Source: a virus. Taken from it: a stretch of DNA of 26,245 nt. A program made the translations under genes and the position numbers. Location of the stretch: the IMG/VR virus record IMGVR_UViG_3300032011_000106, positions 1 to 26,245 of that record; one strand, 5' to 3'. The notes under the pieces were generated by a model. It worked only from the letters and a program-made list of their open reading frames with translations. It was not told where the DNA came from and searched no databases. This document shows positions 3,906-16,598 of this stretch, piece by piece; the first letter of the stretch is position 1, and every line of letters starts with the position of its first letter.

Positions 3906-4144
3906 TTTTTACAACTCCAATATCTTGCTGTTAGTTTATCTTTAGCAGTAGCACACTTATGCCTTGCTCTAAATGATTTTCTACGTGCTGGTTGATCTTT
4001 TTTTATTGTCATATTAGCGTCACCAAACCTAATCAATCTAATCTTACTGCCTACCTTGGCGAGTACAGCAAATTTTTTAGTTTTGGTTCTGGAACGTTTT
4101 GGCTTATTGTAGCCAGAAAATTTTTCACCTGCTCTTTCAATCAT
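3899..4144 (-). CDS. Conserved small basic phage protein (KLIRFGD / PARRKSFRARHKC type)
   Basis: This 81-residue, very basic protein contains, in order, a GYNKPKR segment, VLAKVGSKIRLIRFGDANM (about 28-46), PARRKSFRARHKC (about 53-65) and a C-terminal RYWSCKKW. I recognise this pattern as a conserved, uncharacterised phage family with two spaced cysteines and a DNA- or RNA-binding-like charge, but I cannot name a function. Its ATG overlaps the TGA of the upstream gene (ATGA), so it is translationally coupled. The Cys/His content might bind a metal, which is inference. Its repeated occurrence beside the next two small genes suggests a shared role. Confidence 0.8.
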   Translation of the reverse strand: MIERAGEKFSGYNKPKRSRTKTKKFAVLAKVGSKIRLIRFGDANMTIKKDQPARRKSFRARHKCATAKDKLTARYWSCKKW

Positions 4145-7684: not shown

Positions 7685-8080
7685 ATGGGTAGACTTAAGA
7701 ACATGTTAATAGGTGAAATGGAAAATAAAAAAATAGATCAGTTGGTTAAACCAAATGACTTTGCTAATTTTCACAAGAACAATCCAAAAGTATTTGCTTT
7801 GATTGTCAGATACGCTGATGAATCTGCTAAAAAACGTAACAGATATTCCATTGAGGATATTCTGAGTATCATCAGGTGGCATAGAGATGAAGATACTGTT
7901 GGAGATATATTCAAATTAAACAACAACTACAAAGCGTACTATGGTAGAATGTATATGCAGTACAGAAACAAACCTAAATTTTTTGAGACACGTAATAGTC
8001 TTGCTGACGGCTATGACTTTACTGCTGATATAGAAGTTTATGAAAACTACGTGGAGGTATACAGAACATACGAACTGTAA
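7685..8080 (+). CDS. Conserved phage protein (FHKNNP...RWH...KLNNNYKAYYGR type)
   Basis: This 131-residue protein has FANFHKNNPKVFALIVRYA (about 27-45), then YSIEDILSIIRWHRDEDT, FKLNNNYKAYYGRMYMQY and PKFFETRNSLADG. I recognise this as a widespread uncharacterised family of phages and plasmids with a conserved 'NP', 'RWH', 'NNNY..YYAR' and 'FF..R' order; the sequence suggests a compact helical nucleic-acid-binding fold, which is inference. It has a GAGGAAAG ribosome site. It is the last gene before the structured repeat array, which starts two bases after its stop. Confidence 0.8.
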   Translation: MGRLKNMLIGEMENKKIDQLVKPNDFANFHKNNPKVFALIVRYADESAKKRNRYSIEDILSIIRWHRDEDTVGDIFKLNNNYKAYYGRMYMQYRNKPKFFETRNSLADGYDFTADIEVYENYVEVYRTYEL

Positions 8081-8082
8081 GT

Positions 8083-8124
8083 CTGAGGAGTAAGGTACTG
8101 TTACTCAGCATGTTGGGATAGATA
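8083..8124 (+). repeat. Left half-element of the array
   Basis: A hairpin CTGAG...CTCAG (8083-8108), or alternatively GAGTAA/TTACTC, is followed after seven bases by GGATAGATA (8116-8124). The matching TATCTATCC arm and TTAATGAAT linker are missing on its left, so only the 3' half of the element is present. Confidence 0.5.
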
Positions 8125-8185
8125 TTAATACTGAATGTGTCTTGCAAAGGATTATTGAAATCTAAGTCGAGCTGTTCGTACCTTG

Positions 8186-8243
8186 TATCTATCCTTAATG
8201 AATTACTCATGGGGATATAATGGACATGAGTATGGGATAGATA
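8186..8243 (+). repeat. Complete array element 1 (58 bases)
   Basis: The order is: outer stem TATCTATCC (8186-8194), linker TTAATGAAT (8195-8203), inner stem TACTCATG (8204-8211), 13-base loop, CATGAGTA (8225-8232), linker TG, and outer stem GGATAGATA (8235-8243). All 17 stem pairs are perfect. Confidence 0.7.
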
Positions 8244-8266
8244 GGATGAACGTGGTATCGATATCT

Positions 8267-8327
8267 TATCTATCCTTAATGAATTGTCTAAGTTTATATG
8301 GCTATGTTCTTAGACAGGGGATAGATA
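8267..8327 (+). repeat. Complete array element 2 (61 bases)
   Basis: The order is: outer stem TATCTATCC (8267-8275), linker TTAATGAAT (8276-8284), inner stem TGTCTAAG (8285-8292), 16-base loop, CTTAGACA (8309-8316), linker GG, and outer stem GGATAGATA (8319-8327). The outer stem and first linker are identical to element 1, while the inner stem has a different sequence that still pairs perfectly. Confidence 0.7.
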
Positions 8328-8386
8328 GGTGGTACCGTAAAAAGTGTCAGACTTTTATTAGTCGCTAGCCTTAAGTTACAAAAGCT

Positions 8387-8424
8387 TATCTATCTTTAAT
8401 GAATTCTATACAGGGTGTATAGAA
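8387..8424 (+). repeat. Right half-element of the array
   Basis: TATCTATCT (8387-8395, last base changed), TTAATGAA, then a 9-bp hairpin TTCTATACA-GGG-TGTATAGAA (8404-8424). No GGATAGATA follows. If the first arm pairs with 8319-8327 instead, the changed base makes a G-U pair. Confidence 0.55.
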
Positions 8425-8482
8425 ATAACGAGATGTTATATACCCATGTACTGACATACGTGGGTGTACATCTGGAGCAAAT

Positions 8483-8839
8483 ATGAAAATTGATAGAGTA
8501 ATTATGACGGAAGATTGGCAACCAACCGACAGAATAAAACAAGAGTGCGAAGATAGATTCGGACAGGAGATAGAAATTGAACATGAAGTCGAACAATTTA
8601 AAGACTATTACCTCTCAACTGGAGGAGCTTACGCTAACTGGAATGTCAAATTCAGAGCGTGGTGCAGACAGAATGCAAAATGGAATAGAGAAAGAAATAC
8701 TAGAATCAATACCGAAACTGTTTCGGAACAAAGAAACCGTATGTCTGGAATCATTGACCAAAGAAATGGAAAAACAAATACAGAAGAGGAGCATAATAAA
8801 ATTAGAATACAACACAAACATATCAAAAGTGTTTCATGA
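8483..8839 (+). CDS. DnaT-like replication protein (primosome / helicase-loading type)
   Basis: This 118-residue protein carries, at residues about 33-68, HEVEQFKDYYLSTGGAYANW followed by NVKFRAWCRQNAKW. That is the 'F.DYW....G...W...WR.W.R' pattern found in the C-terminal domain of DnaT and of many phage replication proteins, which binds single-stranded DNA and helps load the helicase. The first 30 residues include a Trp/Asp-rich part TEDWQPTDRIKQECEDRFG. GGAG and the ATG lie directly after the repeat array. The last 55 codons overlap the next gene in another frame; the tail is low-complexity and may be less constrained. It is shorter than DnaT, so it may work with the next protein. Confidence 0.65.
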   Translation: MKIDRVIMTEDWQPTDRIKQECEDRFGQEIEIEHEVEQFKDYYLSTGGAYANWNVKFRAWCRQNAKWNRERNTRINTETVSEQRNRMSGIIDQRNGKTNTEEEHNKIRIQHKHIKSVS

Positions 8840-9191
8840 AATGAAAAAACTGTTGACTGATAAATCAGACGGACATATTGCTTTGTGTTTACAGACTGTA
8901 GCTGAAACATTTCAAGTAAAGATACCTACGGATTTAGGATTGCATATGTACTTCGAAGTCTTAAATAAATATCCAAACTTTATTATGTCTGATGTTATGA
9001 GAGATGTTGTAGCTAATTATAAATATGCAAGGTTACCTATACCAAGCGAGTTCGTACAAAAGTGTGAACCAATACACAAACAACATAGCTCATGGTACAT
9101 ATCTAAATTGCAGATTGTCTGCACATATGAGAATCATCTGGTCAATGGGTTTCCAGTAAATAAATATTTAAAGGAGTATAACAATGGATAG
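8673..9191 (+). CDS. Replication protein, probable helicase-loader-type partner
   Basis: With the ATG at 8673 this protein has 172 residues. The N-terminal part is charged and coiled-coil-like (LESLTKEMEKQIQKRS). The C-terminal half contains LGLHMYFEVLNKYPNFIMSD and VVANYKYARLPIPSEFVQ, matching the 'Y...L..YP...L..A...VV..YKY.RLP.P.E' pattern of phage replication/helicase-loader proteins. The start is uncertain: the frame is open from 8577, with other ATGs at 8643 and 8841, and none has a strong ribosome site. Starts before about 8670 would overlap the conserved part of the DnaT-like gene. It overlaps the following exonuclease by eight bases. Confidence 0.6.
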   Translation: MQNGIEKEILESIPKLFRNKETVCLESLTKEMEKQIQKRSIIKLEYNTNISKVFHEMKKLLTDKSDGHIALCLQTVAETFQVKIPTDLGLHMYFEVLNKYPNFIMSDVMRDVVANYKYARLPIPSEFVQKCEPIHKQHSSWYISKLQIVCTYENHLVNGFPVNKYLKEYNNG

Positions 9192-10036: not shown

Positions 10037-10669
10037 ATGAGTAATCAAAATATTGAAAATATCACACTTGAACAAGTCAATCAATTGATAAATGAAGTAG
10101 ATATAGTAAGAAAAAAGAGTGGCGTTGACTTCCGTGGAAAGAACTATTCTATGGTTGTTGATAGAGTATTAACATTCAGAAAAGCATTTGGTTGGGAATA
10201 TGGTATTGAAACCAGAGTAATTCCAGAACTAACTGTCGACAATATTGTAGCCGTTGGTTGTTATGTCAAAGATTCAGAGGGCAGAATTGTAGGTAGTGGA
10301 CTTGCATATGAGCATAAAAACAACGGACCAGTAAATAAATTATCAGCTTTGGAAAACTGCGAGACATCAGCAATAGGTAGAGCGTTAGCTTCTATGGGGT
10401 TAGCTGGCGGAGAGTATGCTTCTGGAGATGAAATTAATGGAATAGAAGATAAAGACCATGCTCTCTGGAGAGATGAGTTTCCTCTTGGTCTGATGAGTGT
10501 ACTTACTGCTACGGAAGTTATGAGCGATAAAGAGTTCATGAAATTTAGCAATGACGGACAACAAAAAATATGGTTTTGCAAATATTTAGGTCAAGCAGAA
10601 GTTGATCACTATATAAAAATTGCAGAAGAAAGAAAAGAAAAACTAATCAAACAACAGGAGAAAAAATGA
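10037..10669 (+). CDS. Putative single-strand annealing / recombination protein
   Basis: This 210-residue protein has a core with a beta-strand region (RGKNYSMVVDRVLTFRKAFG, VAVGCYVKDSEGRIVGSGLA) followed by NKLSALENCETSAIGRAL and SMGLAGGEYASGDEI. The 'ALENCETSA.GRAL...G..GGEYAS..E' signature is common in phage proteins encoded next to exonucleases and SSB, thought to be Rad52/ERF-like annealing proteins. Its place between YqaJ exonuclease and SSB strongly supports that role. The last 40 residues are charged and may contact SSB. AGGAG lies nine bases before the ATG; the stop overlaps the next start (ATGA). Confidence 0.7.
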   Translation: MSNQNIENITLEQVNQLINEVDIVRKKSGVDFRGKNYSMVVDRVLTFRKAFGWEYGIETRVIPELTVDNIVAVGCYVKDSEGRIVGSGLAYEHKNNGPVNKLSALENCETSAIGRALASMGLAGGEYASGDEINGIEDKDHALWRDEFPLGLMSVLTATEVMSDKEFMKFSNDGQQKIWFCKYLGQAEVDHYIKIAEERKEKLIKQQEKK

Positions 10670-11961: not shown

Positions 11962-12186
11962 TTATCTTAAAGGGTTGTCTGACCTAGCTTTAATCTCATC
12001 TACTTTAGCTTTCAATACTGCTATTTCTGCTTTGTTGATAGCTATATCCTGTTCCAGAGGTTTGATGTCCGGCGCAGACCGTGATTCAACTACATCAAGT
12101 CTTGTTATTAATTGCCCTTGGTAAACGAACAGCCCAGCTATCGTAATCACCAATCCTATGCCAGTAGCTATAGTTTTAATATCCAC
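11962..12186 (-). CDS. Small membrane protein with coiled coil (lysis-type candidate)
   Basis: This 74-residue protein has one N-terminal membrane segment (about 6-22, IATGIGLVITIAGLFVY), then a hydrophilic heptad-like region (DIAINKAEIAVLKAKVDEIK). This topology fits an i-spanin-like or holin-accessory protein, but it is shorter than usual spanins. It overlaps the end of the large secreted-protein gene by 11 bases and ends the minus-strand operon. Function is inferred only from topology and place. Confidence 0.65.
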   Translation of the reverse strand: MDIKTIATGIGLVITIAGLFVYQGQLITRLDVVESRSAPDIKPLEQDIAINKAEIAVLKAKVDEIKARSDNPLR

Positions 12187-13792
12187 GTATTCTCCTTAAA
12201 TGTTCTTCGGCTCTTATCCTTTCGTCAGTAGCTTCTTGAACTTTCTCTTGATATCTCTGTACGACGTCTTGATCGCCATAAGAAATGTCTGCATATATAT
12301 CTCTAGTATCAATATAGTTTCTGGTTTCAAAGTATTCTCCACCGTCTATTTGCAATTGTTCACTAAATATATTCTTGTTTACATTAGAGTAATTGTCAAG
12401 GTCGTGGTTAGTTTGCATAGTTTTTGCCACAATAATTGACGTAGCAACTAACCTTTGGTCAACCCTTTTTATTGTTTCGTTTACCTTTTTTCTTATTTCT
12501 TCTATCGTAACAACTCTATTACTTCCTCCAGAAACTGTTTCATTCCTGCTTTCTTCCACCTCTTGATTTCCGCTTTCGATATTTTCTTCTGCTCCAGCAG
12601 TAGTTTCATTTCCAACATCTGAATCTCTATCTGCTGTTGCTTCTCTTTCTCCGTCAACTTCATTACGTTCACTATCTATTTCTTCAGATACGATAAGAGT
12701 TTCTGCTTCAGGTTGTCCAGATGAATTTTGATCTTCATTTGAAACTTCTTCAACAACGGAAGTGGTGTCGTCGTTGACAATTGTGGTTTCGTTTTCTGTT
12801 GGTCGTTCAACAATTTCTTCTGGTTCTGGCTCAATGATTGTTTCATTACTGGCGACTTCTTCTGAGAAGTAGTCTTCGATAAGGGTTGTTTGAGCTTCAA
12901 GGTTTTCTCTTGTTTCAATAAACGTTTCGTCGATTTGGATTTCTGTTGTGATTTCCGAGAAGTTCTCTTGACTGTCATATGCTATCTCCATTTCTATTTC
13001 TGTATCAAATTGTTCTGTTGGTAGTGGTACATTAAAAACATCTATAACGCCTGTATTAATTTCTTCTACTGTTGCTAATGGTTCAATATATATTTCTTCA
13101 ATAGCTGTTAAAATTATTTCAGGAGTTTCATATAGCTCAAAGCTGTATTCATCTGGCTCAAATTCTATTAACTCTATATCAGTAGCTTCTTCTACAAACT
13201 CTACTGCCGTAGCTATATCTGTCTCTTGTGCTGTGCTTAAAAATATAGGATTAGGTTCATAGTCTATAACAAGGGTAGGGTTTTTTAAATCTACTGCTCT
13301 ATGATATTGCGACTGTGAACTTTCTCTAAAGTCAAACTTGACGTTAATGTTATAATTTGTATTTACGTTCATACCCTCTATGTAGGTAGATGTATACGTT
13401 TGATAGGGCGTGATTTGGCTAAACGCTACTGTTCTTTTTTGTGTTGTAACTGTACCGTCACTAGCTGTAATGGTTTGAATCATGTCTGTTTCACTAGATA
13501 AGTTATTCCAATGCCAGATGTCTGCGCCTAGTGTAGATGACCAACCATATTGTATTTGATCTTCAGTTAAATACTCAGATAAACTTACATCTCTTTCAAT
13601 GCTGTCACCATGATGTGCTGCGACAATACTATTGCCATGATTATGAGATGGGTCATTACATGTCCACTCATTGTGGTTAGAGTTATTATTAAAAAACTGT
13701 TGTGGTAATAAATTATTTGTAGTTTCTGCATTAGCTAACGTGCTAACAATTAGCATTACTAAAAGAAAAATATTTAATCTATCTAAATCCAT
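12176..13792 (-). CDS. Large secreted acidic protein of unknown function
   Basis: This 538-residue protein has a signal peptide (about residues 1-22, hydrophobic FLLVMLIVSTLANA with cleavage after ANA). Residues about 25-180 look folded and are rich in Asn, His and Trp (NEWTCNDPSHNHG, ADIWHWNNL), resembling a sugar-binding beta-sandwich, though I cannot place it. Residues about 185-430 are a long low-complexity acidic region (Glu, Thr, Ile, Val). The last 110 residues are charged and helical. Its ATG overlaps the small lipoprotein stop (TAATG). The acidic DNA is strongly repetitive in composition but not in exact sequence. It may act in the periplasm or at the cell surface late in infection. 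Confidence 0.75.
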   Translation of the reverse strand: MDLDRLNIFLLVMLIVSTLANAETTNNLLPQQFFNNNSNHNEWTCNDPSHNHGNSIVAAHHGDSIERDVSLSEYLTEDQIQYGWSSTLGADIWHWNNLSSETDMIQTITASDGTVTTQKRTVAFSQITPYQTYTSTYIEGMNVNTNYNINVKFDFRESSQSQYHRAVDLKNPTLVIDYEPNPIFLSTAQETDIATAVEFVEEATDIELIEFEPDEYSFELYETPEIILTAIEEIYIEPLATVEEINTGVIDVFNVPLPTEQFDTEIEMEIAYDSQENFSEITTEIQIDETFIETRENLEAQTTLIEDYFSEEVASNETIIEPEPEEIVERPTENETTIVNDDTTSVVEEVSNEDQNSSGQPEAETLIVSEEIDSERNEVDGEREATADRDSDVGNETTAGAEENIESGNQEVEESRNETVSGGSNRVVTIEEIRKKVNETIKRVDQRLVATSIIVAKTMQTNHDLDNYSNVNKNIFSEQLQIDGGEYFETRNYIDTRDIYADISYGDQDVVQRYQEKVQEATDERIRAEEHLRRIRGY

Positions 13793-15014: not shown

Positions 15015-15175
15015 GATTTATAAAAATAACTACCTACTACGGCAGCTATTCCTCCAAGCCATGCAAGAACTGATACAGCTCCTACACCTTTGTTCATTCT
15101 TTCTTCTAGCTTTATAATTCTTTTATCCATCTGGTGCAACTGAGCCATTATCTGTGTGTTTGTAACCTGTTTCAT
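15011..15175 (-). CDS. Small single-pass membrane protein (lysis-cassette candidate)
   Basis: This 54-residue protein has an N-terminal charged helix (QLHQMDKRIIKLEERMNKG) followed by one membrane segment (VGAVSVLAWLGGIAAVVGSY) and a short basic end. This matches small coiled-coil phage membrane proteins near holins. It overlaps the upstream desaturase and the downstream holin-like gene, each by four bases (ATGA), so it is translationally tied to both. Confidence 0.65.
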   Translation of the reverse strand: MKQVTNTQIMAQLHQMDKRIIKLEERMNKGVGAVSVLAWLGGIAAVVGSYFYKS

Positions 15176-15918
15176 TTAAAAATCCTTTCTATAAAAAATG
15201 CAGGAGGATCTAGCTCCCACCATTTGTGTCCATGTCTATAGTCCTTTGACTTAGTATGATGATAGTTATGCCAACCCTCACCCCAGCTAATTAATGATGT
15301 CAATGGACTGTTGACTGCTGTGCAATTTGGTTTAGATTCTACTACTTTATATCCAAAATGTTTGCTATGAGGTATAACACCAAATGCTCCAGCTACTACA
15401 TAAATACATGCACATGGAAATGAAAATAAAAATAGTCCTAACATAGGATTAATTGTGTACAAAATTAATACATATGTAAACAGTAAAGCCCAATAATTCC
15501 TAGTGATAAACATATAATCTTTGTCTTTAAGTATGTCTTTGACCATGACTTTGGGTACAGTTATATGATCATATAATGTAAGCCACGCTCTTAGATAACC
15601 TATTCTTGCAGGTGATTGGTTGTCATCTGTAGGATGTCCAGAGTATTTATGATGATATCTGTGTTGTGCTGTCCATGATAGTGGACTTCCAAATGCTGAT
15701 ATGACTGTAAGATATTTAAGTATCTTAGCTTTAATTGGTGTAGTTTCAAATGATCTATGGCTCATATATCTATGTATAGCTATGTTAGTTGAGAATATAT
15801 TTACAAATGCCCATCCAATTAACCCATAGATTATGTACTCAGGATATGTAATACACGCCCAAATAGATATTAATACATTGGTAAGTGCTAGTAGTTGTAT
15901 CTTAATAGCGTGATTCAT
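15172..15918 (-). CDS. Fatty acid desaturase (membrane di-iron), copy 2
   Basis: With the ATG at 15918 (an ATGA overlap with the previous stop) this protein has 248 residues. It is an integral membrane di-iron desaturase of the acyl-CoA delta-9 class: histidine boxes HRYMSH (49-54), QHRYHH (85-90) and a third, WGEGWHNYHH (212-221). Four or so hydrophobic segments surround the boxes. It inserts a cis double bond into saturated acyl chains using O2 and a reductant, raising membrane fluidity. It is a little shorter than cellular enzymes but keeps all boxes and the HNYHH motif typical of delta-9 enzymes. A TTG two codons earlier is an alternative start. It sits between another desaturase and membrane/lysis genes. 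Confidence 0.93.
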   Translation of the reverse strand: MNHAIKIQLLALTNVLISIWACITYPEYIIYGLIGWAFVNIFSTNIAIHRYMSHRSFETTPIKAKILKYLTVISAFGSPLSWTAQHRYHHKYSGHPTDDNQSPARIGYLRAWLTLYDHITVPKVMVKDILKDKDYMFITRNYWALLFTYVLILYTINPMLGLFLFSFPCACIYVVAGAFGVIPHSKHFGYKVVESKPNCTAVNSPLTSLISWGEGWHNYHHTKSKDYRHGHKWWELDPPAFFIERIFK

Positions 15919-16598
15919 GCCCAACCTAATCTTTTAATTAACCAGACATATGGGTCAAACTTACAATGTTTAAGTTGTGGTTCGATGTGATGTTGTTTAT
16001 GAAATGATTCAGAAAATGCAAAGGGATACATGTAAGGTACATCCCTTACCTTGTCTGTGTGGCACATAATACCTGTAACTAGCATTACCCAGAACGTAGT
16101 CATAGCTACAGCAGTAGCCCATGTAAGAAACCATGCAGTTGGCAGGACTAAGAAAAGAATAGCATTAAACACGTAAACCAACGTTGTTTCATATTTAGTT
16201 AAAAATAATTGCCATTTATTTCTTAGTCTATCTGTAACAAGTTTAATATTATATTCTTGTTCATGTGTTCTAAATATAATATTGAACCAGTTTTTGTGCT
16301 TAGGACTATGAGGGTCTTTATCTGTGTCTGAGTGTTTATGGTGGTTTCTATGCCACGCACTATACGATATTGGTGTTCCAATTAATGCAGTCATAGATAC
16401 TACACTCATTATGTTTTGAAACCATACTGGTGGATTCCATAGATTATGTGTAGCCCATCTGTGTATAAACAAACTCATAGTAAATTCTAGTAAAAAGTAA
16501 AAGAGTATGTATGTGTATAAAAGTTGTAACCAAGATAGTTTTATAAAAGAATAAAGTGCTAGTAAAAAATAAACTAGATATAATATTGTAAGTCCCAC
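15915..16598 (-). CDS. Fatty acid desaturase (membrane di-iron), copy 1, GTG start
   Basis: This 227-residue protein has three histidine boxes: HRWATH (46-51), HRNHH (83-87) and HKQHH (200-204), giving the eight-histidine di-iron core of the fatty acid desaturase family. Hydrophobic segments occur near residues 1-42, 64-82 and 140-178. It is clearly divergent from the second copy: the third box lacks the WGEGWHNYHH context and the protein is about 20 residues shorter, so substrate or position specificity may differ. The GTG at 16598-16596 follows the previous stop by one base, with GGGA upstream. It overlaps the second copy by four bases. Confidence 0.88.
   Translation of the reverse strand: MGLTILYLVYFLLALYSFIKLSWLQLLYTYILFYFLLEFTMSLFIHRWATHNLWNPPVWFQNIMSVVSMTALIGTPISYSAWHRNHHKHSDTDKDPHSPKHKNWFNIIFRTHEQEYNIKLVTDRLRNKWQLFLTKYETTLVYVFNAILFLVLPTAWFLTWATAVAMTTFWVMLVTGIMCHTDKVRDVPYMYPFAFSESFHKQHHIEPQLKHCKFDPYVWLIKRLGWA

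Follow-up and report, generated by a model that had tools for sequence, protein, structure and literature searches.

Cluster K mycobacteriophages carry start-associated sequences (SAS) at 11–19 places per genome, about half of them as extended SAS (ESAS), with 4–13 nt spacers (PMC3203893). We compared these and other described systems with a hairpin array at positions 8081–8482 of a 26,245-nt stretch of viral DNA (the window; IMG/VR record IMGVR_UViG_3300032011_000106, positions 1–26,245), which, judged from its letters and those of its relatives, is probably a transcribed array of exchangeable RNA-hairpin cassettes found in marine phages. ESAS appear comparable in outline: inverted repeats enclose a spacer that varies, and a brief constant stretch comes next, on the sense strand and upstream of phage genes, with a function that is unknown (PMC3203893). 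While the general layout is alike, the sequences differ, and the array usually occupies one locus per record, has interiors of 14–100 nt that recur between phages, and carries tRNA and open reading frame (ORF) payloads.

Integron cassette arrays share with the phage array a row of exchangeable units and a foldable site with constant ends and a variable middle, and, as in integrons, the phage cassettes are exchanged and reordered between genomes. Unlike integrons, the phage array came with no integrase (24 fragment records), its payloads are mostly small RNA hairpins by prediction, and its unit boundary is TTAATG(AATT) rather than the attC core (RYYYAAC/GTTRRRY); by inspection, there is no GTTRRRY at the junction, where the ends are GGATAGATAGG/CCTATCTATCC and TTAATGAATT. 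In contrast to elements of the IS200/IS605 or REP/RAYT type, the array records (n = 15) gave no match to a Y1 transposase. Small RNA anti-CRISPRs and other phage regulatory RNAs are short phage RNAs used against host systems, and any likeness to the array would be an analogy of role only. GOLLD and ROOL are, as the array may be, structured phage non-coding RNAs near or with tRNAs, their function unknown (PMC12286853), but each is a single large RNA with one conserved fold, whereas the array is a string of small interchangeable hairpins with no Rfam match. Rad52-like recombinases are linked to relaxed phage mosaicism and act on short diverged sequences (PMC3945230), which would be a plausible route for swapping short shared segments between phages; this would account for exchange only, not hairpins or covariation, and the stretch shared in the array measures about 20 bp, less than the 700 bp of the region described there. 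A literature search, with most subscription journals outside it, returned no description of such a system, and we could match the array to none; ESAS, integron arrays, and GOLLD/ROOL each share one or two traits with it and fail a defining one. An earlier reading of the window from its letters alone (the sequence-only reading) had also known of no such element; nothing was found in Rfam (tRNA aside) or in the literature searched.

Hairpins and pairing in the window

The 402 nt of the array form six non-overlapping perfect hairpins whose arms are 8 bp or longer, a count reached by none of 1000 dinucleotide shuffles (mean 0.49, maximum 3), and each of the other 402-nt windows of the contig (n = 252) has at most two. 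The RNA folding z-score of the region is −4.54, and the minimum-energy fold is a chain of local hairpins, A1-B1-A2-B2-A3-B3, followed by a terminal hairpin. The conserved arms GGATAGATA...TATCTATCC pair across the "spacers" to give three A hairpins (8116–8194, 8235–8275, and 8319–8395), and the linker TTAATGAAT stands directly 3′ of every one of them (starts 8195, 8276, and 8396).

The sequence-only reading had drawn the units differently, as elements of 58 and 61 nt bounded by the arm pairs TATCTATCC at 8186–8194 with GGATAGATA at 8235–8243 (58-nt span) and 8267–8275 with 8319–8327 (61-nt span). These elements, the quoted arms, and the TTAATGAAT linkers are all exact where it placed them, and the covarying inner stems, including a third copy, are present at 8204–8232, 8285–8316, and 8404–8424. 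It overlooked an additional GGATAGATA arm at 8116 and a weaker 3′ arm, TATCTATCT, at 8387–8395. The alternative pairing across spacers that it proposed exists and yields the local hairpins taken by the minimum-energy fold; the 58- and 61-nt outer stems are not taken, and as a unit they had to be given up, since mosaic arrays pair across the spacer.

Where neighboring A hairpins differ in their arms, each 3′ arm matches the 5′ arm of its own hairpin, while pairing with the following one often fails (contigs L002, L014, L017, L036, and L055 in our labeling). Because own arms had partly been picked for complementarity, pairing was tested at arm positions outside that choice, 201 of 220 of which pair, compared with a mean of 188 in 2000 shuffles (standard deviation 2.0, maximum 197). 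Several stems unrelated to one another carry the loop TTTATATGGCTATGTT or a variant of it, with 98.3% of cells paired over six sequences; both sides of these stems have changed in 5 of 11 pairs, and slid controls stand at 31–58%. A later loop scan added a further pairing stem (AGGTAGGCAAG/CTTGTCTACCT) in L115/L121, a scan for the linker plus a ribosome-binding site added a new one in L124/L125, and cassette A11 in L053 has both arms altered in step. Such compensatory stem changes argue that the fold of the array is under selection, and the claim that the fold and not the bases is selected finds support in the covariation at unselected arm positions and on the TTTATATGGCTATGTT-loop stems.

Array family and cassette exchange

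Exact matching to TATCTATCYTTAATGAATT picked out 58 viral contigs, of which three or more are chance matches, and later scans added more. L008, L009, and L031 were excluded because their 19-mer match was due to chance, and so were L117, L118, L119, and L122, whose 17-mer match falls in coding sequence. Array-bearing viral contigs, which are fragments, number about 55 and belong to three or more lineages of phages. That of the window has a TerL 80% identical to that of the Pelagibacter phage EXVC031P Hodr and has the portal, TerS, and gene order in common with it too. A second lineage has a TerL about 40% identical to those of the window and Hodr, and a third has a P22-type portal (phrog_1216) and a TerL 61% identical to that of the Pelagibacter phage Baldr; the hosts of these two lineages are only suggested, by distant relatives. 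The locus tags of the two reference records are apparently swapped, with OQ414635.1 (L113, Hodr) carrying EXVC032PBaldr tags and OQ414636.1 (L114, Baldr) EXVC031PHodr tags.

Throughout the family, the hairpin of an A cassette has near-constant arms (GGGATAGATAGG/CCTATCTATCC) and its own interior of 14–100 nt, and is followed by the linker UUAAUGAAUU; the sequence after an A hairpin is TTAATGAATT or close to it, and the cassettes are interspersed with other hairpins, a tRNA, or short ORFs. A tRNA-Asn is found inside the arrays of L025, L036, L062, and L123, a zinc-ribbon-like small ORF (weak zinc-ribbon matches only) between A hairpins in L012, and a 50-a.a. ORF between A hairpins in L021 and L045, which in L124/L125 is the gene that follows the array. 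Small ORFs ending in a CxxC...CxxxC pattern were also noted within or next to second-lineage arrays (L012 141–608, L036 1202–1651, and L054 9499–9921), with weak matches only (for L012, to a zinc ribbon). Past most arrays, a ribosome-binding site and a start codon come within about 25–90 nt. Nearly all of the 20 larger records searched whole have a single array locus; record G020 has a second, one-mismatch match elsewhere, and L013 a second hairpin site ~1.2 kb from the first. Clustering by our own scheme gives 49 A families and 29 linking segments. In the A28/A29 cassettes (L032/L053 versus L034/L041), the inner loop between TGGCAAAGTAGGG and CCCACG is either short (CAAGT) or long (TATAATAAATATACGG...), so modules may nest.

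Cassettes of 45–72 nt are identical, or differ by a few bases, across lineages with no similarity in the flanking DNA. A 71-nt cassette is identical in L034 and L041 and a 48-nt cassette in L022 and L025, and cassette identity is 98% for both L014–L036 and L011–L021, in each case with 0 bp of flank similarity; L016 and L034 have a near-identical cassette despite different lineages and dissimilar flanks. The TerL proteins of cassette-sharing lineages are about 40% identical or have no detectable match. Reshuffling is likewise seen directly: cassette order differs between contigs (A10 occurs in eight neighborhoods and A11 in five), and units are precisely present or absent at TTAATG boundaries between L026 and L033.

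At the window's own site, where the flanks are conserved, there are one (L069–L071), two (L049), or three (window) A hairpins with differing interiors; Hodr has neither array nor gap at this place, its copies of the two flanking genes overlapping. The upstream and DnaT homologues are adjacent in L007, L018, and L013, with the array about 2–4 kb away, and in other lineages the array precedes an AAA-ATPase or small unknown genes. The array motif was not found in Hodr and Baldr, no examined isolate has the array, the array sequence had no match beyond chance in 50,697 phage records, and no prokaryote genome matched in searches with the 20-mer and the cassette tRNA. Hodr (L113) does have, by eye, a long nested hairpin of ~100 nt at 12237–12340, in the divergent gap beside TerS, which is unrelated in sequence to the array and is possibly a comparable leader.

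RNA or DNA, and rival explanations

The gene upstream is co-directional with the array in 56 of 58 loci and the gene downstream in 44 of 53, six of the nine downstream exceptions (window, L015, L039, and L069–L071) being antisense ORFs over the true DnaT frame. This sense orientation, together with tolerance of G-U pairs, promoter-like sites just upstream in one lineage, and embedded tRNAs, favors RNA as the working form of the array. The structured non-coding RNA that the sequence-only reading kept as its second choice fits better than the origin that it preferred. In a comparison of the window and 20 arrays with 4227 Rfam families (including hammerhead, twister, GOLLD, and ROOL), only tRNA scored above the gathering score. 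A cassette common to L013 (about 3980–4035) and the L057 array contains CCTGATGAAATAGTCAGGTGAAAAGAA, which recalls the letters of a hammerhead core (CTGATGA...GAAA); neither stem I nor stem II is visible by eye, Rfam gave no match, and a hammerhead was rejected.

The evidence for a transcribed array of RNA cassettes carries several reservations. At unselected positions there are 25 G-U against 9 A-C oppositions (p 0.005), an excess expected if the sense strand folds, in counts that treat related sequences as independent. A promoter-like TTGACA-17-nt site ends 10 nt 5′ of the first hairpin in L028, L040, L041, and L063, with shuffle p values of 0.025–0.045 for a score that is the best found in 130 nt; the other loci are not significant. 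In the window, a promoter-like site was sought just upstream of the array and not found, so that the array there would lie within the body of an operon transcript. The A hairpins were first picked for complementarity, which biases those counts, and the test at unselected arm positions, the TTTATATGGCTATGTT loop test, and the two later scans correct this only in part. Finally, the interiors have no common motif, making a single common RNA function doubtful.

The first rival places the mobility in the DNA: the inverted-repeat ends (GGATAGATAGG/CCTATCTATCC and TTAATGAATT) would be recombination or transposition sites acting as folded single strands, in the manner of integron attC sites or IS200/IS605-type ends, with cassettes inserted singly. 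The alternation of payload and hairpin, the constant hairpin ends around variable middles, the clean gain or loss of units between L026 and L033, the recurrence of cassettes in otherwise unrelated phages, the tRNA and ORF payloads, and the empty site in Hodr would all suit such units. Against this, the tyrosine integrase family PF00589 had no match in 24 array-bearing records, all of them fragments (control genomes, 14 of 14), and neither a serine recombinase nor the Y1 (HUH) transposase PF01797 was found in 15, although the enzyme could be host-encoded. Given also that strict sense orientation and a G-U excess are not expected of DNA sites, and that the B hairpins are without constant ends, we consider DNA-level cassettes unlikely.

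A cis-acting 5′ leader, whose hairpins would shield the next gene's mRNA or control it (as a 5′ stabilizer, an HK022 put-type antiterminator, or a translation control), would explain the short distance from most arrays to a start codon, the promoter-like sites just upstream of several loci of the third lineage, and L115/L121, where a solitary hairpin lies between a TATAAT-like box and the gene start. The same cassettes, however, precede widely differing genes (DnaT, AAA-ATPase, and many small unknown genes), and one locus per record, tRNA cassettes, and interiors too diverse for one antiterminator fit such a leader poorly, so that we regard it as rather improbable.

The sequence-only reading had favored a replication origin or primosome assembly site, with iteron-like repeats and extruded hairpins bound by a DnaT-like or replication protein. 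The array does lie beside a DnaT-domain gene in the window and near relatives, and usually at one locus per record. This tie is unsupported, since in other lineages different genes follow the array; the array also stands away from DnaT in L007, L018, and L013, the A-hairpin copy number varies from 1 to 3 with differing interiors among close relatives, and Hodr has no array at the site. The proposed check by GC skew was run, and the cumulative curve has no extreme at 8.1–8.5 kb (maximum at 11977), leaving an origin highly improbable. That the array is neutral junk, mosaic intergenic "boundary sequences" kept only as recombination-promoting stems and linkers, would agree with the variable unit number and the absence of the motif from Hodr and Baldr, and is scarcely credible against the compensatory changes, a loop conserved on changing stems, near-identical cassettes in unrelated phages, and co-direction with the genes.

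Window layout and proposed role

All features of the array and its flanking genes are on the plus strand. On the left lies an ORF of 131 a.a. (7685–8080; phrog_13625, unknown function, E 1.6e-17) that is kept in relatives. The constant 5′ hairpin CTGAGGAGTAA...TTACTCAG (8084–8110), which is also the array start in L002, L034, L049, L069–L071, L124, and L125, is followed by hairpin A1 (GGATAGATA...TATCTATCC, 8116–8194, with its own 61-nt interior), the linker (8195–8203), and B1 (TACTCATG...CATGAGTA, 8204–8232), a hairpin found also in L014/L042, a different lineage. Next come A2 (GGATAGATAGGAT...ATCTTATCTATCC, 8235–8275), with related interiors in L025 and L049, the linker (8276–8284), and B2 (TGTCTAAG-TTTATATGGCTATGTT-CTTAGACA, 8285–8316), whose loop recurs on other stems in L055, L066, L115, and L121. 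A3 (GGATAGATA...TATCTATCT, 8319–8395) has a terminal G-U pair and precedes the third linker (8396–8404) and B3 (TTCTATACA-GGG-TGTATAGAA, 8404–8424), the final module of many arrays (CTATACATGGTGTATAG). A terminal hairpin (8432–8472), conserved in L049 and L069–L071, stands just 5′ of the ribosome-binding site GGAG, assigned by sequence (8474–8477), of the gene on the right. This gene (8483–8839) encodes a DnaT-domain protein of 118 a.a. (Pfam DnaT, 1.1e-7, 31.9 bits against a cut-off of 25; phrog_1408, 6.6e-9), so the DnaT-like gene reported directly after the array was correctly recognized.

The DnaT-domain ORF overlaps a second plus-strand ORF (8577–9191) in another frame, and, as both have Hodr homologues, the start codon of the second is probably further in. 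A 61-codon ORF at 8183–8368 (plus strand) spans two repeats in one frame (spacing 81 nt, or 27 codons); its frame is not kept in other arrays and it is thus probably a chance product. Elsewhere in the window, two overlapping minus-strand ORFs (15172–15924 and 15915–16598) with histidine-rich boxes appear, by eye, fatty-acid desaturase-like, a pair that would be unusual for a phage.

If the array is indeed one of transcribed RNA cassettes, it would form part of a phage transcript, as the leader or an inner stretch of an operon mRNA, in which unpaired linkers would separate independently folding modules and might offer cut sites between them. At the DNA level, the shared arms plus linker (about 20 bp) could serve as joints for module swaps by the phages' own annealing recombinases; the window encodes a RecE/YqaJ-type exonuclease, and the protein at 10037–10669 is taken, by its position and neighborhood, to be the annealing partner of that RecE-like enzyme. 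The interiors may be small functional RNAs (leader elements, or host-takeover or anti-defence RNAs) selected for rapid turnover, the least supported step of the proposal, and, as a conjecture, high turnover at one locus fits RNAs that interact with the host.

A bolder reading, which we hold only tentatively, is that marine phages, at least some of them SAR11-phage-related, have in common a mobile stock of small structured RNAs, dozens in number, which are reshuffled as cassettes with constant UUAAUGAAUU linkers in an array of their own and are processed to give individual RNAs that act on the functions or defences of the host. If true, it would be the RNA counterpart of an integron cassette array or an anti-defence island; phages are known to keep proteins in reserve in variable gene islands, and here the reserve would consist of small structured RNAs. 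As Hodr, the window's relative, can be grown on a cultured strain of SAR11 (Pelagibacter), the question is open to experiment. With its readable grammar of hairpin, linker, and hairpin, exchanged across lineages otherwise without DNA similarity, the array gives a handle for mining metagenomes for what may be many more phage RNAs.
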